The translations under genes were made by a program, and so were the position numbers. Of a DNA stretch of 32,330 bases, positions 832 to 13,325 are shown piece by piece. Each line of letters opens with the position of its first letter. The first letter of the stretch is position 1. The notes beneath the pieces are model-generated. The model worked only from the letters and a program-made list of their open reading frames with translations, was not told the origin of the DNA and did not search any database. The stretch is from an uncultured Eubacteriales bacterium (GTDB taxonomy: Bacteria > Bacillota > Clostridia > Oscillospirales > Oscillospiraceae), in NCBI GenBank assembly GCA_900544765.1, contig UQWI01000019.1:1-32330 (forward strand), in the 5' to 3' direction.

Positions 832-1884
832 ATGGCGATTAACCTTGCAAGCAAGTTCAGCAAATATGTAGACGACGCCTTCGAGCACGAGTGCCTGCTC
901 GCGGGCGCTACGAGCAACCGCGTCGATTTCACCGGCGTAAATGAGGTCAGCGTCTACTCCGTCGACAAGATGGAGATGAACGACTACAACCCCTCCGGCA
1001 CTTCCCGCTACGGCAGCGTGGAGGAGATAGGCGACCGCGTGCAGACCTTCAAGATAGACCGCGACCGCTCCTTTACAGGCTCCATAGACGAGGGCAACGC
1101 CCAGGACCAGTACAACGTCAAGGACGCCTCCGCCAGGCTGCATGTCCAGATACGCGACGTGGTCATCCCTGAGGTGGAGACCTACGTCTTTGGCAAGTGG
1201 GCCTACGGCGCAGGCAAGGTGGTCGGCGGCGACGCACCGACGGCCGAGACCCTGCTGGGGCTCATCCAGGCGGGTGCGAGCTACATGAACAACCACCATG
1301 TACCCCGCCGCGGGCGCAGTATGTTCATAGCCGAGACCTACGCGGCTATGCTGCCCAACCTCGCCAACCTGACCTACCTCGAACGCCTGGGCAGCGAGGC
1401 CCTGAGCGAGAACCGCCTGCCCCGCGTGGCCGGTTTCGACGTGCGCGTAGTACCGGACGGCGACATGCTCGAGGGCGTGTACTTCATCCTTCAGCACAAG
1501 GACGCCTGCCCCTTCGTCCAGAAGCTGGCCAAGTACAAGATTCAGAAGGACCCCATGGGCATAGACGGCAACGTCATTGAGGGGCGCGTGCGCTACTGGG
1601 CCGGTGTACTCGCAGAGAAGTGCGACGGCGTTTATGTCTACGCCGCCTCGGCTTCCGTCCAGGACGCGCCGGTTTTCGGCGGCACCGGCAATGCGGTCAC
1701 CGTCACCGCTGCTGGCGCGACCATCTACTACACCGTGGACGGCACCGACCCCAGGTACAGCGCTACTCGGGAGCTCGTGGCCTCCGGCGGCACGGTTAAC
1801 ATAACTTCTGGGCAGGTGCTCAAAGCTTACGCCTTCACGGACGAAAAGTATCCCAGCGGAGTTGTAGAGAAGGCTGCCGTCTGA
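832..1884 (+). CDS. Major capsid protein with C-terminal beta-sandwich domain
   Basis: A 350-residue protein starting at an ATG with a strong GAGGAGG ribosome site ending about 10 bases upstream. The N-terminal part (VDDAFEHECLLAGATSNRVD, then a DRDRSFTGSIDEGN segment) matches the pattern of phage coat proteins of the P22/HK97-fold group common in gut Firmicutes phages. It would form the icosahedral shell. Residues about 275-350 look like a separate small beta domain of the chitobiase C-terminal/Fn3-associated type: an ATIYYTVDGTDPR motif, then SGQVLKAYAF. Such domains usually decorate the capsid surface and may bind glycans; that role here is inference. It lies between the scaffold and a connector-type gene, the standard head-gene order. 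Confidence 0.9.
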   Translation: MAINLASKFSKYVDDAFEHECLLAGATSNRVDFTGVNEVSVYSVDKMEMNDYNPSGTSRYGSVEEIGDRVQTFKIDRDRSFTGSIDEGNAQDQYNVKDASARLHVQIRDVVIPEVETYVFGKWAYGAGKVVGGDAPTAETLLGLIQAGASYMNNHHVPRRGRSMFIAETYAAMLPNLANLTYLERLGSEALSENRLPRVAGFDVRVVPDGDMLEGVYFILQHKDACPFVQKLAKYKIQKDPMGIDGNVIEGRVRYWAGVLAEKCDGVYVYAASASVQDAPVFGGTGNAVTVTAAGATIYYTVDGTDPRYSATRELVASGGTVNITSGQVLKAYAFTDEKYPSGVVEKAAV

Positions 1885-2512: not shown

Positions 2513-2944
2513 ATGGCAAGAGTGCCGACTAACATTTCTGAATCCGTCTACCAGATAAAGCGCTGGAAAGGCGTCAACGAGGCTCAGGAGGGCGAGGCTT
2601 CGCTGGAGATGGGCGAGGCGGCGGTCATGCGGAATTTCAAGGTCACGGCGGGCGGGGCGCTGCAAAAACGGGGCGGCTCGGTCAACGTGGCGGGTCTGCT
2701 CAACAGCTACACCGTCGAGGTGGACGAGGACAACCCCGTGGGGCTGTACTCCGAGTTCGGCTCCAGCGTGCTGCAATTTACTATGTACCCGGGTGTGCAG
2801 GTCGACAGCATGGGCGCTCTCAGCCTCACGGGCGAGCCCGTGACTGTCACGGAGAGCAATGCCGACGACTACGAGGGGTACTATTTCCAGCACAACACGG
2901 GCGAGATATACCGCTTTGAGGGATTGACGAGGTCGAGAAGATGA
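2513..2944 (+). CDS. N-terminal fragment of a phage tail/stopper structural protein
   Basis: A 143-residue product starting at an ATG five bases after a perfect AAGGAGG site; an in-frame ATG at 2447 lacks such a site. Residues 1-65 (MARVPTNISESVYQIKRWKG, then GEAAVMRNFKVTAGGALQKR) match the N-terminal signature of long tail or stopper proteins in gut Firmicutes phages, reminiscent of P22 gp10 and T7 gp12 starts (NF-V...G-L-KR-G). In such proteins this segment normally runs on into a long beta-propeller-like body. Here it stops soon after GEIYRFEG with a short basic tail (LTRSRR). The missing body appears about 2 kb downstream, from about residue 245 of the 4167-6533 product. The stop codon overlaps the next start (ATGA), implying translational coupling to the radical SAM gene. 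Confidence 0.75.
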   Translation: MARVPTNISESVYQIKRWKGVNEAQEGEASLEMGEAAVMRNFKVTAGGALQKRGGSVNVAGLLNSYTVEVDEDNPVGLYSEFGSSVLQFTMYPGVQVDSMGALSLTGEPVTVTESNADDYEGYYFQHNTGEIYRFEGLTRSRR

Positions 2945-4185
2945 GAGAGCTGCCGAAAATTACATCCGCCATGCTGGTGGTCACGCATGGCTGCAATCTC
3001 CGGTGCTGCTACTGCTTTGTGCAGAAGGAGCCGCAGCGTATGGCGCTCTCCACGGCGAAGGACGCGGCGAGGTTCCTCATGGCCAACGCCGTGGCTTCAG
3101 GCGGCGGGACGCCGGAGATAAACTTCTTCGGCGGCGAGCCGATGCTCGAGTTCGACACGGTAATAAAGCCGCTGGTCGAGTGGGTGCACGATGAGCTGGG
3201 CAAGCCGTTCAGGTTTTCCATTACGACAAACGGGACGCTGCTGACGGACGAGCGGATACGTTTCATGCAGCGGCACGGCTTCGGGCTGCTGCTCTCCATG
3301 GACGGGAACGCTCCTGTGCAGGACTACAACAGGCCATGCGCCGACGGGAAGGGGTCGTTCACTATACTGAAGCCCATTGTGCCGAAGGTGCTCGCGGCGT
3401 GGCCGGGTACGACGTTCCGCATGACGGCGATTCCCGAGACGTGTTCGCACCTGTTTGAGAGCATTATGTGGGCTTCGGCGCAGGGGTTTACGAACTTCTT
3501 TGTGACGCCGAATGTGTTTGAAGCCTGGGACGATGCGGCGCGGGACGTGCTGGCCGGTGAGCTGCGCAAGTATGCAGACTACTACGCCGACTGTAAGGCT
3601 CGGGGCGTGAGGCCTATCACGTTCTCAACCTTTGAGCAGGCGTTCCAGGACATGAAGCAGATAGAGCTGGCCGAAAAGCAGGGAGCATACAGGGCTATGC
3701 CCAAGTGCCGCAGCGAGGGCAAGTGTGGGCTGGGTACGTCGCGGTTTGCGTCCATCCATCCGAACGGGAACCTGTATGCCTGTCAGGAGATGACGAGCAA
3801 CGAGGGCGAGGAAAGCGCCTTTTATATAGGCTCCATATATTCCGGCGTGGACAATAACCGGCGGCGTGCGCTGGCGGAGAGCTTTGACAGCGTACCCGTG
3901 CGGGGCGAATACTGCTCGGGTTCCCCGCAAAAGCGCAGCTTTTGTGGGGAGAGGAGGAGCGACGGAACGACTGAGCCTTCGCGCTCGCGCGGAGGGGAAG
4001 GATGTGCAGTCCGCGACGACGTGTGCGAATATGACAGGATATGTGATGGGGGATGCGTTGCAAACAACTACATGGTCACCGGCAGGCTGGGCAGGATGCC
4101 CGAAATGTATTGCTGGTGGCGGCGCACGGTGCTACATGAGGCTATGAGGGTAAAGGAGGCAGAGCAATGCCGAGCGGAAGCGTAA
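2941..4185 (+). CDS. Phage-encoded radical SAM/SPASM peptide-modifying enzyme
   Basis: A 414-residue radical SAM enzyme. The cluster motif C18-x3-C22-x2-C25 (GCNLRCCYC) binds the [4Fe-4S] that cleaves S-adenosylmethionine. FFGGEP (GGEP motif) and the SITTNGTLL strand follow. The C-terminal third is a SPASM domain for auxiliary Fe-S clusters: C262-x13-G276-x4-C281, then C362-x5-C368-x3-C372 and C391. SPASM enzymes of this layout typically modify ribosomally made peptides, for example by forming Cys thioether links. It starts by ATGA overlap with the upstream structural fragment and overlaps the start of the Cys-rich structural gene by 19 bases, so all three are co-translated. That neighbour is the obvious candidate substrate (inference). 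Residues 328-354 look like an in-frame insertion; without it C325 and C355 would form a CxxC pair. Confidence 0.9.
   Translation: MRELPKITSAMLVVTHGCNLRCCYCFVQKEPQRMALSTAKDAARFLMANAVASGGGTPEINFFGGEPMLEFDTVIKPLVEWVHDELGKPFRFSITTNGTLLTDERIRFMQRHGFGLLLSMDGNAPVQDYNRPCADGKGSFTILKPIVPKVLAAWPGTTFRMTAIPETCSHLFESIMWASAQGFTNFFVTPNVFEAWDDAARDVLAGELRKYADYYADCKARGVRPITFSTFEQAFQDMKQIELAEKQGAYRAMPKCRSEGKCGLGTSRFASIHPNGNLYACQEMTSNEGEESAFYIGSIYSGVDNNRRRALAESFDSVPVRGEYCSGSPQKRSFCGERRSDGTTEPSRSRGGEGCAVRDDVCEYDRICDGGCVANNYMVTGRLGRMPEMYCWWRRTVLHEAMRVKEAEQCRAEA
3922..4002. repeat. In-frame 81-bp double-hairpin element inside the SPASM domain
   Basis: Codons 328-354 of the radical SAM gene do not fit the SPASM family and are low-complexity (Ser, Arg, Gly, Glu). 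The DNA forms two hairpins: CCCCGCAAAAGC at 3923-3934 with GCTTTTGTGGGG at 3938-3949, and CCTTCGCGC at 3976-3984 with GCGCGGAGG at 3987-3995, each with one G-T wobble. The outer ends TTCCCC (3921-3926) and GGGGAA (3994-3999) are also complementary. Its length is a multiple of three and it has no stop in the coding frame. This looks like a small dispersed palindromic element that has landed in frame, comparable in principle to Rickettsia palindromic elements. No second copy was seen in this window. Confidence 0.65.
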
Positions 4186-6533
4186 GCGGATTTAAGAGCT
4201 GGCACAACGGCTCGCCTATAAACAGCTCGTCTTGGGCGAACCCGAACACCATAGCCTGCGGCTCTTCGGGCTATGTCGGCGCGGTGAGGTTTTCAATAAG
4301 CCAGTCGGCGTCGAGCATCACCATCAGCTCCAGCGTGTACAGGCGGCTTTCAAGCGGCACGATGCGCGCGGAGATTCGCACAAGCGAGCTGAGCAATCCG
4401 ACGCCCTCGGCGGTCGGCTCTGACACCACATTCAGCGCTCCGAGCGCGGGGAGTACGGCTAGCTTCACGTTCAGCGGCTCTTTCACGGCGGGGACGTACT
4501 ATGTTTACATCACCAGCGACAGCGCGTACATAGACCTCTACGCCTCGGGCAACATGTCGGTGAGCTATGTTGCAGGCGGCGGGTGTACGCACATGTGTGA
4601 GCTGTTCTGCGAGGAGTGCGAGGGCTCGTGCGAGAGCGGCTGCCAGGCGGTGTGTCAGAACTGCGAGGGCTACTGTGAAAGCTCCTGCGAGGTGTACTGC
4701 CAGAACTGTGAGGGCGCGTCCTGCCAGAGCTGCGAGGGATGCGAGAGCTATTGCGAGGGGGTCTGCCAAAACTGCCAGGGGGCGGGCTGCCAGACCTGCC
4801 AGACCGGCTGCCAGGGCTCGTGCCAGGAGACGTGTGAGAGCGCGTGCCAGACCTCCTGCCAGCTGGGGTGTCAGGCCTCCTGCGAGCTTTCCGCGCAGAG
4901 CTCCAACTACTTCGTCTGGAACTTCTGCAAGGTCACGGCGGCGGCAAACACCACCGACACGGTGGTGCGCGGGCTCTGGTCGGGCTTTGTGGCCGGGCAG
5001 GAGGTGCTGTGCGCGGCCTGCAACGGCTACCTGTGGCAGCTCTCGCTCGGCGAGGACGGGACGTGGAGCAAGACGGCCTGCGGCACGATAGACACCGACG
5101 AGGACGTTTTCATGTTTGGCTTCTCGGACAGCCTCTATCTGCTCAACGGTTCCCAATACCGTGTTTGGAATGGCACGGCGCTCACGGATGTGGGCGGCTA
5201 CAGGCCGCTGGTGGCGGTGAGTGTGCCGCCTGAGGGCGGTGGGACGGCGCTGGAGCAGGTGAACAAGCTCACAGGCGCGCGCCGTGTGCGGGTGTCGCCG
5301 GACGGCACGGCCACTGTGTTTCATCTGCCTGAGCAGAACCTTGCGAGCGTGGACTATGTGCAGTATGTGGCGTCGGGCGCGGATATAACCAGCTACGACG
5401 TAGATTTGACGGCAGGCACGGTGACTATCGCACCGGCTCCGGCGGAGGGTACGAACAGCGTAGAGATAGGCTATTCAGTCGCTGACGATACGGCGGACGA
5501 GATTCAGGCGATGCGCTACGCAGAGCTGTACAACGGCTCGCAGGACACGAGGGTGTTCGTCTACGGCGACGGGACGAACAGGTGCTTCTACTCAGGTATA
5601 GACTACGACGGTTTGCCGCGGGCGGACTACTTCCCGGACTTGAACGTGGCGCATGTGGGTGACGAGAACACGGCCATAACCGCCATGATACGCCATTATG
5701 ACCGGCTGCTGTGCTTTAAGCTCGACAGCGCGTGGGCTATAGGCTACTCACAGGTGACGCTGGCCGACGGCACGGTGACGGCGGGGTTCTATGTCTCGCC
5801 CATCAACCGCAGCGTGGGCAACTGCGCGCCGGGGCAGGCGGTGCTGGTGGAGAACAGGCCGCGCACACTGGACGGGCGCAGCGTGGTTGAGTGGAAGTCC
5901 ACTTCCTCCAGCGGCAACATAAACGGCGACGAGAGGAACGCAGAGCGCGTTTCTCAGCGCGTGGACGAGACGATACGCACCTTTGACCTGGAAACTGCCA
6001 AGACCTTCTACGACAAGTACGCGCACGAGTACTACGTCATCGGCGCGGACGGCACGGCGCTGGTGCACGGCATAGACGCGGACGCCTGGTATGTCTACAC
6101 CAACTTCGCGGCCAGGTGCCTCATAAACTACAAGGACGAGCTCTACTTCGGCACGGCGGACGGGTATCTCAGGCACTTCTCGACGCAGTATTTCTCGGAC
6201 GAGGGCGAGGCGATAGACGCCTACTGGGAGAGCGGCTCCATGCCCTTCGCGGCGGACTTCCAGCGCAAATACTCCGCGATGCTGTGGGTCGGCATCAGGC
6301 CGGACGACAACGGCTATCTCGAGGTCAGCGCCAAGACCGACCGCAAGACGGATTTCGCCGTGTACAGCTTTGAGACGGTGGACGCGGCCCAGGTGCCGGA
6401 GATGAACCGCATCAAGCTCAAGGCGAAGAAGTTTACTTACTACAACCTCATCCTGGCGAACAACACGGCGGACAAGACGGCAACGGTGGTCAGCGTGGAC
6501 ATCCGGGTGCGCGGGACGGGGTATGTGAGATAA
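4167..6533 (+). CDS. Phage structural protein: beta domain, Cys-rich repeat segment, tail/stopper body
   Basis: A 788-residue product with an AAGGAGG site at 4152-4158. Three parts can be seen. Residues 1-135 are a Ser/Thr-rich beta-sandwich-like domain of the virion-displayed binding type (SASSITISSSVYRR, TAGTYYVYITSDSAY). Residues 140-239 contain 27 cysteines. From about residue 245 (NYFVWNFCKVTAAANTTDTV) to the end is a repetitive beta body with motifs such as VVRGLWSGFVAGQEVL, YNGSQDTRVFVYGDG and YFPDLNVAHVGDENTAI, as in phage stopper/tail-needle-base proteins with a propeller-like fold. This third part normally follows the sequence now found separately at 2513-2944. The gene probably encodes a particle component near the tail. 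Whether its Cys-rich part is modified by the adjacent radical SAM enzyme is inference. Confidence 0.85.
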   Translation: MPSGSVSGFKSWHNGSPINSSSWANPNTIACGSSGYVGAVRFSISQSASSITISSSVYRRLSSGTMRAEIRTSELSNPTPSAVGSDTTFSAPSAGSTASFTFSGSFTAGTYYVYITSDSAYIDLYASGNMSVSYVAGGGCTHMCELFCEECEGSCESGCQAVCQNCEGYCESSCEVYCQNCEGASCQSCEGCESYCEGVCQNCQGAGCQTCQTGCQGSCQETCESACQTSCQLGCQASCELSAQSSNYFVWNFCKVTAAANTTDTVVRGLWSGFVAGQEVLCAACNGYLWQLSLGEDGTWSKTACGTIDTDEDVFMFGFSDSLYLLNGSQYRVWNGTALTDVGGYRPLVAVSVPPEGGGTALEQVNKLTGARRVRVSPDGTATVFHLPEQNLASVDYVQYVASGADITSYDVDLTAGTVTIAPAPAEGTNSVEIGYSVADDTADEIQAMRYAELYNGSQDTRVFVYGDGTNRCFYSGIDYDGLPRADYFPDLNVAHVGDENTAITAMIRHYDRLLCFKLDSAWAIGYSQVTLADGTVTAGFYVSPINRSVGNCAPGQAVLVENRPRTLDGRSVVEWKSTSSSGNINGDERNAERVSQRVDETIRTFDLETAKTFYDKYAHEYYVIGADGTALVHGIDADAWYVYTNFAARCLINYKDELYFGTADGYLRHFSTQYFSDEGEAIDAYWESGSMPFAADFQRKYSAMLWVGIRPDDNGYLEVSAKTDRKTDFAVYSFETVDAAQVPEMNRIKLKAKKFTYYNLILANNTADKTATVVSVDIRVRGTGYVR
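4584..4883 (+). repeat. Cysteine ladder, C[EQ]xx/C[EQ]x repeats (residues 140-239)
   Basis: Twenty-seven cysteines lie within 100 residues, spaced 3, 4 or (twice) 5 apart, mean about 3.8. Of these, 26 are followed directly by Glu or Gln (only C140 is followed by Thr). QNC[EQ]G recurs at residues 179-183, 201-205 and 164-168. The spacing puts the cysteines along one face if helical, with runs of 4-4-3 and 4-4-4-3. The DNA shows partial direct repeats, pointing to growth by duplication. The pattern recalls precursor peptides of Cys-rich radical SAM systems (for example CXXX-repeat targets), but here it is embedded in a large structural protein. Confidence 0.9.
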
Positions 6534-6543
6534 GGAGGGAAAG

Positions 6544-6870
6544 ATGGCTATACGGATAAAACAGGGCGACCAGTACAGCGTGCCTATTCTAATACGGCTC
6601 AACGGGGAGACGGTCGACATAGATGAGCTCGCCGAGGTGGAGTTCACCTTCGGCGACGGGACGCGCAAGCTCTGGCCCCAGGACGTGCAGTACAACAGTG
6701 CGGACAACTGCTTCTACCTGCCGCTCACGCAGGAGGAGACCTTCGCCTTCCCGGCGGGGGAGTCCGTGGCGCTGGACATACGAGTAAAGTTCGTGGGCGG
6801 GAACGTCATCGGCGTGCAGAGACCGGAGAGCTTCGCCGTGGCCGACGCAGCAAGTGAGGTGGTGCTTTGA
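6544..6870 (+). CDS. Small phage tail/fibre-associated protein
   Basis: A 108-residue, beta-rich acidic protein with a GGAGGG site just upstream of the ATG, 10 bases after the stop of the large structural gene. The opening (MAIRIKQGDQYSVPILIRLN) and the middle pattern of alternating strands resemble N-terminal attachment domains of baseplate or fibre upper proteins (BppU-like) that link fibres to the tail. Its TGA stop overlaps the start of the collagen-like fibre gene (TGATG), so the two are translationally coupled and the products probably meet in the particle. No catalytic motif is visible. Confidence 0.6.
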   Translation: MAIRIKQGDQYSVPILIRLNGETVDIDELAEVEFTFGDGTRKLWPQDVQYNSADNCFYLPLTQEETFAFPAGESVALDIRVKFVGGNVIGVQRPESFAVADAASEVVL

Positions 6871-8795
6871 TGGACAGGCTCAGCGTGGAGCTCTTCGACG
6901 CGGGGCGCCTGGAGGCGGACGCGGGCTCCGCCAGGCTCGTACAGGGGCCTAAGGGCGACCCGGGCGCGGTGTATGTGCCGAGCGTGGCCGGAGGCGTCCT
7001 GTCCTGGACGAACGACGCCGGGCTTGAAAACCCCGTCCCGGCCGACATAAGCGGCCCCGCAGGCCCGCAGGGGCCTAAAGGGGATACAGGCGAGGCCGGG
7101 CCGCAGGGCCCGACAGGCCCGCAAGGAGCGACCGGCCCGCAGGGAGCCCAGGGCGTTCAGGGCGTAAAAGGCGACAAGGGCGACGTGGGATACGTCTTTA
7201 CACCCAGCGTCAGCGACGAGGGCCTGCTCTCGTGGACAAACGACGGCGGCCTTACGAACCCGGAGCCCGTCAGCGTGCGCGGCCCGCAGGGCGTCAAAGG
7301 CGACACCGGAGACCAAGGCCCGCCGGGAGAGCAGGGGCCGCAGGGAGAAACAGGCCCGCAGGGGCCGAAAGGAGATAAAGGCGACACTGGTGACGCAGGC
7401 CCGCAAGGGCCGAAGGGAGACACGGGAGAGCAGGGACCGCAGGGAGAGACAGGCCCGCAGGGGCCCGTCGGACCCAAAGGGGACCCGGGCACGGGGCTGG
7501 ACATACTCGGTCAGTACGACAGCCTTGAAGAGCTCCAGGCGGCCGTGACGAGCCCGGAGATAGGCGACAACTACTATGTAGGCGCTTCGGCCCCGTACAG
7601 CATTTACACTTGGACGAACGCCGGCGGGACGGCGCAGTGGGTAGACGGCGGTCAGCTCCAGGGCTCGAAGGGAGACAAGGGGGATTCGGGCGGCTACTAC
7701 ACGCCAAGTGTCGACGGCAATGGAGTGCTGTCCTGGGCGGGCTCCCAGAGCGGGATGCCGGATGTCGCGCCGGTGAGCATACGCGGCCCGCAGGGCTCCG
7801 CCGGTGCGGACGGAGCGGCCGGGGCCGACGGCGCTACCTTCACACCGTCCGTGAGCGAAGAAGGGGTGCTTAGCTGGACAAACGACGGTGGCAGGGCAAA
7901 CCCGCAGCCGGTCAGCATAAAAGGGCCGCAGGGCGAGCGCGGGCCAAGCGGGCAGGACGGAGCGTCCGGTGACGACGGGGGCTACTACACGCCGTCTGTC
8001 GACGCCTCCGGAAACCTCTCCTGGTCGGCGAGCAAGGGCGGGATGCCCACGGCGCCTTCGGCCAATATATGCGGCCCGCAGGGGGTGAAAGGCGACACCG
8101 GAGAGCAGGGTCCGCAGGGTCCGCAGGGCCAGCAGGGCGTACAGGGAGAGCCCGGAGAGCCCGGAAACGATGGGGCGGACGGCGCGACTTTCACGCCCAG
8201 CGTGGACGCGGCGGGCAACCTGAGCTGGACGAACAACGGAAACCTGGAAAACCCGGCCACCGTAAATATAAAAGGTCCGAAGGGCGACAAGGGGGACACG
8301 GGCGACACCGGGGAGCAGGGGGCTCCCGGCGCACCAGGTGCGGCTGCGACCATCAACGGTGTGAACGCGCTTACGCTGGCAGCGGGCGAAAATGTGGAGC
8401 TAGAGCAGTCCGGCTCTACGCTGACAATCAGCGCGTCGGCGGGCGGGCCGCTGTACGTCCAGTTTACCGGAAGCGATCAGATGAATCTGAGCACCGACCA
8501 CACGCTTGAAGAGGTCGTCGCTGCGTACCGGGGCGGGCGTGATGTGATAGCCGTATACGACAGCGTCAACTACACCCTGGTGTGCATAGACTCGGCGAAC
8601 ACCATGGCGCAGTTCACTTTCTTCGCTCAGAGCACCATGCACGAACTGTTTATGCTCAACAGCGGCGGGCTGCGCATAAATTATTGCACTGAGACGCAGA
8701 TAAGCGCCTCATTGATAAAGTTCTCGCCCGGCTCCACCGGCATCGACGCCGACAACGTTCAGGACGCCATCGAGTATTTGGCCTCTTTACTGTGA
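6870..8795 (+). CDS. Collagen-like phage tail fibre
   Basis: A 641-residue protein starting at the ATG that overlaps the previous stop; a TTG three bases earlier is less likely. Gly-x-y triplets ([19 protein letters not shown] style) form several collagen-like rods. Between them sit six related modules of about 30 residues with the core [FY][TV]PSV-(x)-G-L-SW-(x)-P-(x)-I-GP, at about residues 34, 108, 278, 325, 372 and 440. A single larger insert ([20 protein letters not shown]) lies near residue 215. The final 170 residues form a C-terminal head that ends in [18 protein letters not shown], a common phage fibre ending. It would be a trimeric fibre with a receptor-binding tip. One Cys occurs in a module (NICGPQG). 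Confidence 0.88.
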
Positions 8796-8842
8796 CGGGG
8801 CCGCAGCCGGACACATATTATGTAGAGCAAGGAGGGAGAAAA

Positions 8843-9634
8843 ATGTATAAAAAAGGCATCGACGTGTCCAAGTGGCAGGGTACGGTGGACTGGGAAAAGG
8901 TGAAGGCCTCCGGCATAGAGTTCGCCATGCTGAGGGCCGGGTACGGCCAGGGCAATATGGACCCGCAGTTTGAGCGAAACGCGAGTGAGTGCACCAGGCT
9001 TGGTATACCGTTCGGCGTGTATTGGTTTTCCTACGCCTGCACGGCGGACATGGCCAGGCGAGAGGCGCAGTTCTGCATGGACGCTGCGGATAAGTATAAG
9101 CTTCAATACCCGATGGCCTTCGACTTTGAATACGATAGCGTAGACAACGCCGCCGACAAGGGCGTGTCCGTAACCAAAGCGCTGGCCAGCTCTATGGCGC
9201 GCGCGTTCTGCGATGAGGTGAAGGCCGGCGGATACTACCCGATGGTATACGCCAACCCTAATTACCTCGCGGCCTATTTCGACGCGGATATACCGAAGGA
9301 GTTCGACATCTGGCTGGCCAAGTGGCCTCGCGACCCGCAGCCGGAGAACGAGCCGGAGCAATCAGGCGGCATGTGGCAGTACACTTCGAGCGGCACGGTG
9401 AACGGCATAAACGGGCGCGTGGACATGGACGCGGCGTACAAGGACTATCCGGCGCTCATCGCCGGGGAGAACGGCGGAGGCGAGGACGAAAACGAGGGCG
9501 GATACGAGCAGGAGGCCGAAAGGGCCAGGGCCTGGGTGATGCGGCAGGGCATATCCGACGGCACCAGGCCGGACGACTTTGTCACCAGGCAGGAGCTCTG
9601 GGTGATGCTCTACAGATTGGAGGGGTACAAATGA
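8843..9634 (+). CDS. GH25 endolysin (lysozyme) with C-terminal SLH-like region
   Basis: A 263-residue phage lysozyme that cuts the glycan backbone of peptidoglycan. The ATG at 8843 follows an AAGGAGGGAG site; an earlier in-frame GTG at 8792 has no site and would only add an unlikely leader. GH25 features are clear: GIDVSKWQG with D7, then MAFDFEYD with D94 and E96 as the DxE catalytic pair, and WQYTSSGTVNGINGRVDMD near the end of the domain. After a Gly/Glu-rich linker, residues about 225-263 (ARAWVMRQGISDGTRPDDFV) form a wall-targeting type module common in Firmicutes endolysins. No signal peptide is seen, consistent with release through the holin encoded immediately downstream (ATGA overlap). 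Confidence 0.95.
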   Translation: MYKKGIDVSKWQGTVDWEKVKASGIEFAMLRAGYGQGNMDPQFERNASECTRLGIPFGVYWFSYACTADMARREAQFCMDAADKYKLQYPMAFDFEYDSVDNAADKGVSVTKALASSMARAFCDEVKAGGYYPMVYANPNYLAAYFDADIPKEFDIWLAKWPRDPQPENEPEQSGGMWQYTSSGTVNGINGRVDMDAAYKDYPALIAGENGGGEDENEGGYEQEAERARAWVMRQGISDGTRPDDFVTRQELWVMLYRLEGYK

Positions 9635-9891
9635 TAAATTGGTTGGTAAGGTTCAAAAACAAGGGATTTTGGCTGAGTTTTATCCCGGCTGTGCTGCTTT
9701 TTGTACAGACTGCGGTCGCGCTCTTCGGGCTCAATATTGAGCTCGAGGGCCTGGCGGCGAAACTGCTCGACGTGATGAACGCGCTTTTCGCCGTGCTGGC
9801 GCTGCTGGGTATAGTCAACGACCCCACCACCGAGGGCGTTGGCGACAGCGCGCAGGCGCTCGGTTACACCGAGCCGAAGAGGGCCGGGTGA
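9631..9891 (+). CDS. Holin, phi LC3 type
   Basis: An 86-residue membrane protein whose ATG overlaps the endolysin stop and follows a TTGGAGGGG site. It starts MINWLVRFKNKGFWLSFIPA and has two hydrophobic segments, about residues 13-33 and 46-63, joined by a short polar turn, then a polar tail with NDPTTEGVGDSAQAL. This is the standard pattern of the phi LC3/Hol family, which opens the cytoplasmic membrane to let the endolysin reach the wall. The endolysin-holin pair forms the lysis cassette. Confidence 0.93.
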   Translation: MINWLVRFKNKGFWLSFIPAVLLFVQTAVALFGLNIELEGLAAKLLDVMNALFAVLALLGIVNDPTTEGVGDSAQALGYTEPKRAG

Positions 9892-9892
9892 T

Positions 9893-10165
9893 ATGACGGA
9901 GTGGGGTGTGGTGGGCGTACTCGCAGCCCTGGCCGGATTCGCGGCGACGCTGGTCGCGCCGGTGATTAAGCTCAACACGACGCTGACCAGGCTTACCGTG
10001 CTGGTCGAGGAGCTGTCGGACAAGCTCTCGGCGCTCGAGCGCAGCAATTCGGCCGTGCATACGGCGCTTGCAGACAGGATAGGCCGGATGCGCACGGACG
10101 TGGGTGCACATGAGACAAGGATAACGGTTTTGGAGAAGAACGGGGGTAAAAATGGCGACATATGA
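9893..10165 (+). CDS. Small phage membrane protein with coiled coil (XhlA/holin-accessory-like)
   Basis: A 90-residue protein. The ATG at 9893 lies one base after the holin stop; an upstream in-frame TTG at 9839 lies inside the holin gene and is unlikely. Residues 5-25 form one membrane segment (GVVGVLAALAGFAATLVAPV), followed by a heptad-like helix from about 29 to 84 with regularly spaced Leu and Val. The layout (membrane anchor plus coiled coil beside a holin) resembles XhlA-like or spanin-like lysis helpers. A structural role cannot be excluded. It overlaps the next gene by 14 bases. Confidence 0.7.
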   Translation: MTEWGVVGVLAALAGFAATLVAPVIKLNTTLTRLTVLVEELSDKLSALERSNSAVHTALADRIGRMRTDVGAHETRITVLEKNGGKNGDI

Positions 10166-11090
10166 CCCAAATGTGGACTATTCTGACCTCATAGCCCAAG
10201 AGGCGGCCAAGGGAGTAAACGCAAACCGGCAGCTGCTGGCGCAGTACGAGGCGCAGCGCAACGCCAAGATTACAGCCGAGCGGCTGCCGTATGCGCAGAC
10301 CTCGGTGTACACCAACGAGCTGGGCAGGCCGCTGGGCTATTATCAGGCCGAGGACAGGTCCGACTACATAAACGAGCTCTACGACACGGCGAGGGAACAG
10401 GCGCTCAGCGCTCTTGAGAGCGCTTACGACAGGGAAGTGACGTCATACGACTATGCGGCGGCGCGCATACCGGCGCAGTATTACGATGCGCGCAACGCGG
10501 CTTCCGCCGAGGCTGCGCTCGCCAGGCAGAGCGTGAACGAGCAGTTTGCGGCCTCCGGCCTCAACACGGGCGCGGCGGGACAAGCCCGCCTGAGCCTGGC
10601 CGTGGCGGAGCAGGGCGCACTTGGCGCGTTGGGCAGGGAGCAGGCCGCCGCACTGGCGGAGCTTGAGATGCGCAGGGCCGAGGCCGAGAGCGAGTACAAG
10701 GCCGCGGTTGCCGAGGCGATAGCGTCCAGCGAGCTGGAGAGGGCTCAGGCGCTGTACGACGAGGCGGTGCGGGTCGAGTCCAGCTACCGGACGTACTCAG
10801 AGGATTTGCTCGCGGCATGGGGCCTGACCCTGGCCGGTACGCCGGCTGCGGCGGAGACGGCAGCGGCAGGAACGTCCGGGGGAGGGGGCCGGACAGCTGC
10901 CCGGAAAACCGACGATGAGCCGGCTCCGCCCTCTGCGCAGGAGCTGGCGGACAACGCCGCGGCGCTGCGCTCGCAGCTCTCGCGCATACCGGGCCTGACG
11001 CGCGAGAACAAGGCCGGTATGGTGCGGGACTACTTTGCCAACGGGCGCATAAGCTACGACGACATGCAGTCGCTGCTGGCAGGGATATGA
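10152..11090 (+). CDS. Ala/Glu-rich helical phage protein, possibly internal virion protein
   Basis: A 312-residue protein that I cannot assign firmly. It begins MATYDPNVDYSDLIAQEAAK, then residues about 70-220 are long Ala/Glu/Arg-rich helices with an embedded NEQFAASGLNTGAAGQARLS segment. A Gly/Ala/Pro-rich linker (230-262) leads to a C-terminal helical part (SQLSRIPGLTRENKAGMVRD). There is no membrane segment or enzyme motif. Long Ala-rich helical proteins near the end of the structural block in short-tailed phages are often ejected internal proteins, so that is the best guess. It is the last phage gene before a strong terminator. Confidence 0.55.
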   Translation: MATYDPNVDYSDLIAQEAAKGVNANRQLLAQYEAQRNAKITAERLPYAQTSVYTNELGRPLGYYQAEDRSDYINELYDTAREQALSALESAYDREVTSYDYAAARIPAQYYDARNAASAEAALARQSVNEQFAASGLNTGAAGQARLSLAVAEQGALGALGREQAAALAELEMRRAEAESEYKAAVAEAIASSELERAQALYDEAVRVESSYRTYSEDLLAAWGLTLAGTPAAAETAAAGTSGGGGRTAARKTDDEPAPPSAQELADNAAALRSQLSRIPGLTRENKAGMVRDYFANGRISYDDMQSLLAGI

Positions 11091-11093
11091 AAA

Positions 11094-11124
11094 CAGGCGG
11101 CCGCAAGGCCGCCTGAGACTTTTG
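11094..11124 (+). terminator. Terminator closing the phage late operon
   Basis: A 9-bp perfect stem, CAGGCGGCC at 11094-11102 and GGCCGCCTG at 11107-11115, with a GCAA loop of the stable GNRA type, followed by GAGACTTTTG. It lies three bases after the last phage gene and marks the end of the recognisable phage block. Confidence 0.88.
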
Positions 11125-11152
11125 TCGGGATGTGCGGGAAATGTGGTTTTGC

Positions 11153-11181
11153 TTGCGTTTTTTGAAATAGTTTATTATAAT
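11153..11181 (+). promoter_or_regulatory. Promoter for the acyltransferase gene
   Basis: A perfect -10 TATAAT at 11176-11181, with TTGCGT at 11153-11158 as a weak -35 and a 17-base spacer. It lies about 30 bases before the AGGAGGGA ribosome site of the next gene and marks the restart of transcription after the phage terminator. Confidence 0.6.
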
Positions 11182-11213
11182 CAAGTGAAACCCAGCAGGA
11201 GGGAGTGCATCAT

Positions 11214-12512
11214 ATGGATAAGCTCACCGTACAGCAGGAGCTGGAGAAACGCAAGCTGCATCCGGTGTCGCCGCTTATATACAGGTTTCTGGGACGCGTG
11301 GTTGTAAACGGCGTCCTTGCCAAGAAGTACAACGCCCACTTTACATATGTAGACGATGTGTCCAAGTATCGCGGGCAGAGCTATGTGGTGGTGTCGAATC
11401 ACGCCTCCCGCATGGACTACGTCTTTACCGCTCCGGCTTTCCTTCCGGACGCCTTTAACTTCGTTGTGGGCTACAACGAGTTCTTCCGCAGCCATCTGGC
11501 CATGATACTGCGCATGATGCAGGTCATACCTAAAAAGAACTTCGTGCATCAGCCCTATGCGATACGCCAGATAATCAAGGTTATACGCTCGGGCGGGCGC
11601 ATCATTATCCTGCCCGAGGGCATGAGCAGCATCTCCGGCGCAAACCAGCCCTGCGCGCTGGGCAGCGGGCACCTGCTCAAGAGCCTGGGCGTGCCTGTGC
11701 TGTACACAAAGATTTCAGGCGGTTACCTCACCGCGCCCAAGTACAACCTCACCGACCGCGTCGGCCGTGTCGACATAGAGGCCGGGGTGCTCTTCACACC
11801 TGAGCAGCTTGAGGATATGACAGCCGAGGAAATCCAGAGCCAGCTCGACGAGAAGCTCTACCACGACGACTACGAGTGGAACAAGACGGCCCGCGTCAAG
11901 TTCGACGGCAAGGGACGGATGGCCGAGAACATGCATCAGCTGCTTTTCTGGTGCCCAAAATGCGGCTCCGACCTCACTATGGAGAGCAGCGGCGACAGCA
12001 TCCGCTGCAAAAAGTGCGGCAACGGCGGACATCTTAACGAGTACTACGACCTCATCCCCGATGAGGGCAGCACCCTGCCCGAGACCCCGCGCGTCTGGTT
12101 CGACATGCAGCGTGAGCATGTGCGCAATATGGTGCGTGAGGACGGCTATACGCTCAGCGAGCACGTCAAAATAGGCGTGCTGCCCAAGTACAGCTACCTC
12201 AAAAACCAGGCCACGAGCGAGATAGTGGGCGAGGGCGAGCTGAAGCTCGACGCCGAGGGCCTGCACTTCGAGGGGACAAAATCCGGCGAGGCCTACAGCT
12301 TCTTCGTGCCTATAAAGCAGCTGCCGACCTACGGTATGTGCACAGACGTGTCGCGCTTCTACACCTTCGTGGACGGGGAGTTCACGGAGTTCTACCCCGA
12401 CGGCGACACCGCCGAGCTGTGGATGATGGCGACCGAAGAGATGCATAGAGCGCAGGGCGGGCAGTGGCAGGATTTCCCCTGGAAGCGCCATGAGGACGCA
12501 GTAAGGCAATAA
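11214..12512 (+). CDS. PlsC-like glycerophospholipid acyltransferase with zinc ribbon
   Basis: A 432-residue protein. The ATG at 11214 is well spaced from AGGAGGGA, whereas the GTG at 11205 is too close. The N-terminal half is an acyltransferase of the 1-acylglycerol-3-phosphate type: the catalytic H63-x4-D68 motif in SNHASRMDY and the LPEG motif at 133-136. It would transfer an acyl chain to a lysophospholipid at the membrane. Unusually long for PlsC (about 240 residues), it continues with a zinc ribbon (C247-x2-C250 and C265-x2-C268) and a C-terminal region ending around WMMATEEMHRAQGG. The C-terminal extension may bind a substrate or nucleotide; its function is unknown. No host genes lie between it and the phage end. 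Confidence 0.88.
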   Translation: MDKLTVQQELEKRKLHPVSPLIYRFLGRVVVNGVLAKKYNAHFTYVDDVSKYRGQSYVVVSNHASRMDYVFTAPAFLPDAFNFVVGYNEFFRSHLAMILRMMQVIPKKNFVHQPYAIRQIIKVIRSGGRIIILPEGMSSISGANQPCALGSGHLLKSLGVPVLYTKISGGYLTAPKYNLTDRVGRVDIEAGVLFTPEQLEDMTAEEIQSQLDEKLYHDDYEWNKTARVKFDGKGRMAENMHQLLFWCPKCGSDLTMESSGDSIRCKKCGNGGHLNEYYDLIPDEGSTLPETPRVWFDMQREHVRNMVREDGYTLSEHVKIGVLPKYSYLKNQATSEIVGEGELKLDAEGLHFEGTKSGEAYSFFVPIKQLPTYGMCTDVSRFYTFVDGEFTEFYPDGDTAELWMMATEEMHRAQGGQWQDFPWKRHEDAVRQ

Positions 12513-12539: not shown

Positions 12540-13325
12540 ATGTTTACGACTAACCATTTTATTTGGCTGGCAGTATGCGCCGTATGCATTGCCGCAGGGC
12601 TGGGGTACCTCATAAACCGGCGGCCAAGGCTCAGCAGCGCACTCACGGCGTTCTGCCTTGTGTGTATTGCGAGCGAGTGCGTCAAGGTGCTCTCATGTAT
12701 AGAGATGGTACCCGCCAAGGACGGGCAGACTATGTATCCATACCTGCCGCTGGCACATCTGCCCTTCCACCTCTGCTCGATACAGATAGCCTTCATTTTC
12801 TATACCAGGTTTTCGCACAATGAGCGGCTGCGCACTGCGCTGCTCGCCTTTATGTATCCCAGCTGCCTGGCCGGGGCGCTGCTGGCCCTGCTGATGCCCA
12901 GCATCGTACCCGGCTCCGTGGCCGTGGAGGACATGTTCCGCGCGCCTCTGGCCTATCAGTACTTCCTTTACCACAGCGCGCTGATTGTTCTGGGAGCCTA
13001 CATACCGCTCTCGGGAGAGGTTGACATAAAACCAAAACACTATCTCTCCAGCCTCGGCATATTGCTGGGTTTGGGCTTCGCGTCCATTTACCTCAACAGC
13101 GCCTTTGCTTCGCCCAGGTACGAAAACGGGGAGCTGGTGGGCCTGGACTATGTTACGAACTTCTTTTTCACATATGAGCCGCCCTTCGACCTCGGGATAA
13201 GTGAAAAATGGCAGTGGATGCTCTATGCGGCGGCAATAGCGCTTCTGGCAGCGGCGGTGATAGCGCTGCTGTACGCGCCGTATTTCGTCAAGGCTAAGCG
13301 GGCAAAGTCCCGTGAGCGGGGCTGA
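12540..13325 (+). CDS. YwaF/TIGR02206-like integral membrane protein
   Basis: A 261-residue, strongly hydrophobic protein with about six to seven membrane segments. The motif LAHLPFHLCSIQ near residues 72-84 is typical of the YwaF family of uncharacterised Firmicutes membrane proteins. A basic tail (FVKAKRAKSRERG) suggests a cytoplasmic C-terminus. The start is the ATG 27 bases after the acyltransferase stop; no strong ribosome site is visible, so it may depend on coupling to that gene. The family's biochemical role is not known; the link to a lipid acyltransferase hints at envelope function (inference). Confidence 0.8.
   Translation: MFTTNHFIWLAVCAVCIAAGLGYLINRRPRLSSALTAFCLVCIASECVKVLSCIEMVPAKDGQTMYPYLPLAHLPFHLCSIQIAFIFYTRFSHNERLRTALLAFMYPSCLAGALLALLMPSIVPGSVAVEDMFRAPLAYQYFLYHSALIVLGAYIPLSGEVDIKPKHYLSSLGILLGLGFASIYLNSAFASPRYENGELVGLDYVTNFFFTYEPPFDLGISEKWQWMLYAAAIALLAAAVIALLYAPYFVKAKRAKSRERG

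Follow-up and report, generated by a model that had tools for sequence, protein, structure and literature searches.

What does a radical S-adenosylmethionine (SAM) enzyme do among the structural genes of a phage? The question is raised by a 32,330-nucleotide stretch of contig UQWI01000019.1 (assembly GCA_900544765.1, an uncultured Eubacteriales bacterium), hereafter the window, in which the end of a prophage gives way to bacterial genes. In this prophage the gene of a radical SAM/SPASM enzyme overlaps that of a tail protein, the carrier, which contains a dense run of Cys residues (the ladder), nearly all followed by Glu or Gln. That the enzyme acts on the ladder is very likely, and the overall explanation, which we hold to be probable, is that it is the maturase of a Cys ladder built into a virion protein. 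The features involved are as follows, by window position.

2941..4185, forward strand: radical SAM/SPASM enzyme, 414 amino acids (PF04055; NF047865; alignment A1, described below; best Protein Data Bank match CteB 5wgg)
3916..4023, forward strand: insert region in the enzyme gene, in frame, with a strong hairpin, a copy of a dispersed repeat (A1; genome copies)
4167..4185, no strand assigned: 19-base overlap of the enzyme and carrier genes (open reading frame coordinates)
4167..6533, forward strand: carrier protein, 788 amino acids, with a carbohydrate-binding-like domain, the Cys ladder and a tail hub
4167..4577, forward strand: N-terminal jelly-roll domain, residues 1-137, CBM35/CBM6-like fold
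4584..4898, forward strand: Cys ladder, residues 140-239 (27 Cys), and terminal acceptor Q244; proposed substrate of the enzyme
4941..6530, forward strand: tail hub domain, P22 gp10-like

The preliminary description of this DNA had proposed such a pair, and its reading of the letters was accurate. The Cys residues that it listed for the enzyme are all present (C18/C22/C25; C262-x13-G-x4-C281; C362-x5-C368-x3-C372; C391), open reading frames 2941-4185 and 4167-6533 overlap by 19 bases, and 26 of the 27 Cys in carrier residues 140-239 are followed by Glu or Gln. The enzyme belongs to the radical SAM superfamily, with the CxxxCxxC motif at the first three of these Cys and a PF04055 match of 58.5 bits against a cut-off of 29.5. 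The SPASM pattern runs Cx9-15Gx4C, then Cx2Cx5Cx3C, then C. Cx2Cx5Cx3C is found in most relatives in A1; in the window enzyme C325 and C362 are split by an insert and the other Cys are in place.

If the two genes form a system, they should be found together, and this association holds whether the search begins with the enzyme, the hub or the ladder. Beginning with the enzyme, an alignment of 21 relatives (A1) yielded 80 genome loci (the best 80 of 192) and 47 viral loci; a ladder was called strong where a gene beside the enzyme had at least five C[EQ] per 60 amino acids. In the clade of the enzyme (the window, L001-L017 and L081-L093; 31 loci, some of them near copies) a strong ladder is present in 27, in a gene that overlaps the enzyme gene or lies ~150 bases away at most. 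The preliminary description had named relatives lacking the Cys segment as counter-evidence. Within the clade this case is approached only by a shortened ladder (L006, 4 Cys), one degenerate ladder seen twice (L087 and L088, Cys-rich with few C[EQ]) and a contig that ends at the enzyme (L084). Outside the clade, none of the 63 outgroup loci (L018-L080) has a ladder at this threshold. Among the 34 distant viral loci (L094-L127), six have one near the enzyme (L098-L102 and L104, L101 barely) and the others, recoded phages aside, have none. In a tree of 53 of the 128 enzymes, 30 of the 34 rows labelled as ladder-bearing, with L006, L087 and L088 counted among them, fall in one clade (support 100/99).

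Beginning with the hub gives the same association. The carrier has a 98% identical counterpart (P0144) in Candidatus Scatomorpha gallistercoris, which makes this group the probable host. Its AlphaFold2 model has a mean predicted local distance difference test score (pLDDT) of 49.7 and served only to examine the N-terminal domain and to point to the hub, the fold of which was then tested separately. A P22 gp10-type tail hub fold was found over most of the main domain; by this comparison the carrier is a protein of tail-hub fold. P22 gp10-type hubs and the Pagevirus virion structural protein share this fold, are relatives in sequence and sit in phage structural operons as well. They differ in that the ladder is absent from 52 of 56 viral hub loci, Pagevirus included, and these 52 also lack the enzyme as judged with the A1 profile. 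In the four hub loci with a ladder, the enzyme lies directly upstream in three, and the fourth begins inside the carrier gene (Fisher 1.4e-4). The absence of the ladder from 52 of the 56 also rules it out as an ancient part of the hub.

Beginning with the ladder, DNA was scanned with a pattern of five units, which gave at least 120 stretches; L081 and L102 were left out of the counts. Among the matches listed, 118 loci were new, and all were examined: the pattern is in frame in 47 and out of frame in 71. Judged by eye, 23 of the 47 are real ladders (on 22 contigs, since L176 and L181 share one) and 24 are simple repeats, a group that includes L160 and L216, on contigs with a radical SAM match. 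The 24 simple-repeat and 71 out-of-frame loci, minus two that share a contig, provide 93 comparison contigs. Among the matches listed, PF04055 is found on 17 of the 22 ladder contigs (15 over the cut-off) versus 4 of the 93 others (p 1.5e-12; 2.1e-10 at the cut-off). Truncation at contig ends accounts for four of the five ladder contigs that lack a match: the ladder genes of G005 and G009 reach the end, the enzyme end of G090 is L283, and a second Cys-rich gene of G092 runs off its end. The fifth, G089, is an unexplained exception. Judged by gene content, enzyme and ladder belong together and travel together, and the three-way co-occurrence supports the earlier proposal of an enzyme with its putative substrate built into a virion protein.

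The make-up of the ladder bears on the chemistry. In segment 140-240 of the window carrier, 28 of the 74 non-Cys residues are Glu or Gln, and their placement after Cys has a hypergeometric p of 1.5e-16, which rules out chance composition. Across 23 carriers, Glu or Gln occupies 621 of 750 positions directly after Cys and 128 of 1512 elsewhere in the ladder. It does so equally at Cys spacings of 2, 3 and 4, and in half of the pairs at spacings 5 and 6. Because Glu or Gln follows Cys at all common spacings, the unit of the ladder, as read from these alignments, is Cys-[Glu/Gln]. The commonest spacing is 4, where the arrangement is also [EQ]xxC; as a fixed unit [E/Q]xxC is out, because at spacing 3 position -3 is a Cys, yet +1 is Glu or Gln (112 of 135).

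The two ends of the ladder differ from one another. The first Cys is followed by Glu or Gln in 4 of 28 ladders, compared with 602 of the 763 remaining Cys. Five residues after the last Cys, Glu or Gln without a Cys of its own is present in 23 of 28 (background 8.1%); this exact rule fails in L012, L015, L090, L091 and L097. Positions -4 to -2 of the first Cys hold Glu or Gln in 6 of 28, about background. In distant ladders (13 loci; L101, L103, L104 and L128 excluded as other types), Glu or Gln follows the first Cys in 4 of 28 blocks and stands at +5 of the last in 17 of the 25 blocks with a residue there, the pattern being cleanest in the six blocks of L306. Links from each Cys to the Glu or Gln of the next unit would lead one to expect such asymmetry. 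Downstream pairing of this kind therefore appears fairly likely.

Family comparisons suggest a chemistry. The best NCBIfam family of the window enzyme is NF047865, the ranthipeptide maturase PapB (freyrasin, Paenibacillus polymyxa), with 190 bits against a cut-off of 340, and PapB is also the best family for all ten further relatives' enzymes scanned (191-281 bits, again below 340). The SCIFF maturase (TIGR03974; 129 bits against 425, the match starting at profile position 98), the CXXX-repeat maturase (TIGR04115; 101 against 350) and the Cys-every-fifth family (NF038107; 68.5 against 600) scored lower, and sactipeptide and cyclophane maturases also occur among the family matches of the window enzyme. 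Identity with the CXXX-repeat or SCIFF family was dropped, since these scores lie below the cut-offs and PapB scores higher. The parallel to CXXX-repeat targets in the preliminary description gives way to PapB for the same reason. By name, the CXXX-repeat and Cys-every-fifth systems do share with the ladder a regular spacing of target Cys and a SPASM-type maturase. Unlike PapB, the window enzyme has its first cluster Cys at residue 18, which leaves no room for an N-terminal RiPP recognition element.

A single-sequence scan of viral contigs with the window enzyme gave no relative. The enzyme matches in isolate phages (48 and 39 records) and plasmids (54) are all below 60% identity; the best isolate-phage alignment among the matches listed is to Phage Phass-1 (35%). 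Of the 15 plasmid matches listed, 11 are annotated as quinohemoprotein amine dehydrogenase maturation proteins. Quinohemoprotein amine dehydrogenase contains few links. In the passages available, they are described as Cys-Asp and Cys-Glu thioethers made by the radical SAM enzyme QhpD in a functional protein (PMC8326336), a precedent that differs in that its target is a cellular enzyme and not a repeat ladder in phage tail proteins. The passages on PapB describe Cys-Xn-Asp links (n 0-6) in repeated motifs, with the donor Cys before a downstream acceptor, in line or nested, and Cys-Glu links as accepted (PMC9413430). PapA, the substrate of PapB, has a leader and Asp acceptors and exists as a free peptide, whereas the Glu/Gln motif of the ladder lies inside large virion proteins.

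From these comparisons, Cys-to-side-chain thioethers are the best-supported chemistry for the ladder, and a quite likely one. As in PapB, the enzyme would abstract a hydrogen from the carbon beside the Glu or Gln carboxylate or amide, and that carbon would join the sulfur of the Cys in the preceding unit, generating a chain of small thioether rings. The links would be Cys-X4-[E/Q] at spacing 4 and Cys-X3-[E/Q] at spacing 3; in the window, pairs from C140 with E145 through C239 with Q244 would engage 27 donors and 27 acceptors. A ladder stapled in this way may form a stiff stalk, a guess from its place between two domains that we offer tentatively. Such a stalk would need no oxidation, would resist proteases and reductants, and would keep the carbohydrate-binding-like domain at a distance from the hub; on the tail proteins of other phages it could serve as a linker or cap.

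Several observations weigh against this account. None of the 11 enzymes reaches the PapB cut-off, so their chemistry is not readable from family membership, and Gln is not among the acceptors named in the literature passages available (Asp, Glu, Asn and Thr). The unmodified ladder has a pLDDT of 28-39 in the AlphaFold2 model, and thus no structure can be claimed for it. A leader-like IxIPxFL motif precedes the ladder in only 9 of 19 carriers (L009, L013, L081, L082, L083, L085, L087, L091 and L092) and is absent from the window carrier; the carriers that bear it are otherwise mostly unrelated. The 28 ladders tested for their edges include near copies (L009 and L085) and are thus not independent, and three ladderless hub loci (L257, L268 and L293) start at the hub gene, where an upstream enzyme would not be visible. 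In G013 the ladder and the enzyme are ~6.7 kb apart, and G089 (L319), a viral contig of 35.6 kb, has a strong ladder at 7659-9950 with no radical SAM match. Another Cys-rich gene of G089, with CxxxCxxC, lies at 5217-6782.

The window enzyme itself may also be inactive, as its SPASM Cys pair is interrupted. A 34-residue insert, overlooked in the preliminary description, separates C325 from C362, where relatives have Cys-x2-Cys. Among 20 relatives in A1 the insert is absent from 18, reduced to a few residues in P0033 and whole in P0004. Its DNA forms a strong hairpin and has no second copy within the window, and copies of 77-90% identity in four of nine related genomes identify it as a dispersed repeat. 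The element at 3916-4023 is thus a palindromic dispersed repeat lying in frame between two conserved SPASM Cys, and P0004 has the same.

These points bear on three other explanations. In this prophage the repeat, by splitting the auxiliary-cluster motif, could have killed the enzyme, leaving the ladder unmodified or modified in trans. The position and nature of the insert favor this, and among the 120 homologues listed a length of 414 amino acids occurs only in P0003 and P0004; but P0004 (87% identity) has retained both this insert and an open frame, the clusters of P0003 and P0004 are well populated (116 and 332 members), and the ladder and the remaining cluster Cys are intact. We regard a dead enzyme here as unlikely, if a real concern. 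The enzyme could instead act on the ladder by another chemistry, such as sulfur-to-alpha-carbon links (sactionine), oxidation or dehydration of Glu/Gln, or upstream links as in NxxcA, in which Cys23 is joined to Asn20, an acceptor three residues before the Cys, according to the part of PMC8326336 available. The sactipeptide and cyclophane maturases among the matches of the window enzyme and the [EQ]xxC arrangement at the commonest spacing fit such alternatives. Against them stand the side-chain-thioether maturase PapB as best family in 11 of 11 cases, the retention of Glu or Gln at +1 at spacings 2 and 3, where the residue three before the next Cys is not Glu or Gln, and ladder ends that match the downstream direction; a different chemistry is accordingly improbable.

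Far less probable still is that the ladder serves the tail as a metal, iron-sulfur or disulfide module, the enzyme gene being a neighbor with another job. Cys every three to five residues could also bind metal, and G089 shows a ladder on a contig without a radical SAM match. Yet on one hub protein ladder and enzyme are jointly present or absent, unrelated carriers bear the ladder with the enzyme beside it, and the scan from the ladder leads to enzymes far above background. The fixed Glu/Gln and the asymmetry of the ends would be unaccounted for, which makes disulfides or metal binding hard to reconcile with the ladder. Maturation of the ladder by the enzyme, through side-chain thioethers, is retained as the probable explanation for the system.

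How far does such a system extend? In relatives, too, the enzyme and carrier genes overlap or are closely spaced, and the ladder is found on carriers other than hubs. These include proteins with matches to a Hoc-like head decoration protein and phrog_36643 (L011 and L017; in L011 with a Baseplate_J gene upstream), a Big_2 protein with an M23 match slightly below the cut-off (L016), RHS proteins (L014 and L015), a peptidoglycan-binding protein (L012), a 959-amino-acid protein that has the ladder at its end and matches a PHROG of no assigned function (L090), and small proteins encoded near head or tail genes (L009 and L092). In the distant phages L303, L306, L307 and L309, at least one ladder protein adjoins other radical SAM enzymes, and L098 and L100 each have two enzymes. 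In L094, L096 and Phass-1 (L313, a complete genome with a code-15 clade named in its record), TAG codons interrupt the enzyme frame unless they are read as Gln. A Cys-rich gene directly follows the related radical SAM gene in all three (L094:2314-2835, L096:10226-10828 and L313:8129-8653); in these genes 8 of 17, 19 of 27 and 6 of 13 Cys, respectively, precede Asp, Asn, Glu or Gln, and the type is partly Asp/Asn. L095 showed no Cys-rich gene immediately behind its enzyme.

The pairing of enzyme and ladder in many unrelated phages suggests a novel means by which viruses could harden portions of their particles. With somewhat less assurance than for the maturase itself, we favor a portable thioether-ladder module that travels with its own maturase as a widespread virion modification, present on podophage tail hubs, fibre-like proteins of long-tailed phages and RHS or cell-wall-active proteins. 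It would have a Glu/Gln version and, in recoded (TAG=Gln) gut phages, an Asp/Asn version, the multi-link staple joining Cys(i) to the acid or amide after the next Cys. Among the titles and abstract beginnings listed for open-licence PMC papers, none concerned radical SAM modification of a virion protein. If the proposal is true, phages encode dedicated radical enzymes that cross-link their own particles, a modification that the literature covered otherwise reports for peptides and one cellular enzyme only. A class of Cys-rich phage proteins of no known function would then be accounted for, the pairing of the links would follow a testable rule, and natural substrates with dozens of links would be available to study processivity in radical SAM enzymes and to produce stapled proteins.

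Some of these loci have further features. One prophage (L011) encodes two ladder proteins, at 7141-7542 and 10193-11716, near a single enzyme. In the phage locus L009, the second gene downstream of the ladder gene encodes a reverse transcriptase (PF00078; 8959-10017) and may mark a diversity-generating retroelement that targets a tail protein. In L012 (8016-8807) and L016 (7928-8721), away from obvious phage genes, the enzyme and ladder genes adjoin those of a sigma-70 region 4 protein and a BhlA-type holin, an arrangement that we take to resemble the release cassette UviA/UviB.

The surroundings in the window agree with the phage structural operon of the preliminary description, with a major head protein before the pair and a collagen-like tail fibre and an endolysin after it.

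832..1884, forward strand: major head protein, same operon (phrog_422, 4.8e-29)
6867..8795, forward strand: collagen-repeat tail fibre, directly after the hub region (PF01391 and tail PHROGs)
8792..9634, forward strand: GH25 endolysin (PF01183, phrog_291)

Among the bacterial genes, the one at 12540-13325 encodes a TMEM164-family domain (PF14808, 71.7 bits), a family that takes its name from a eukaryotic membrane protein.

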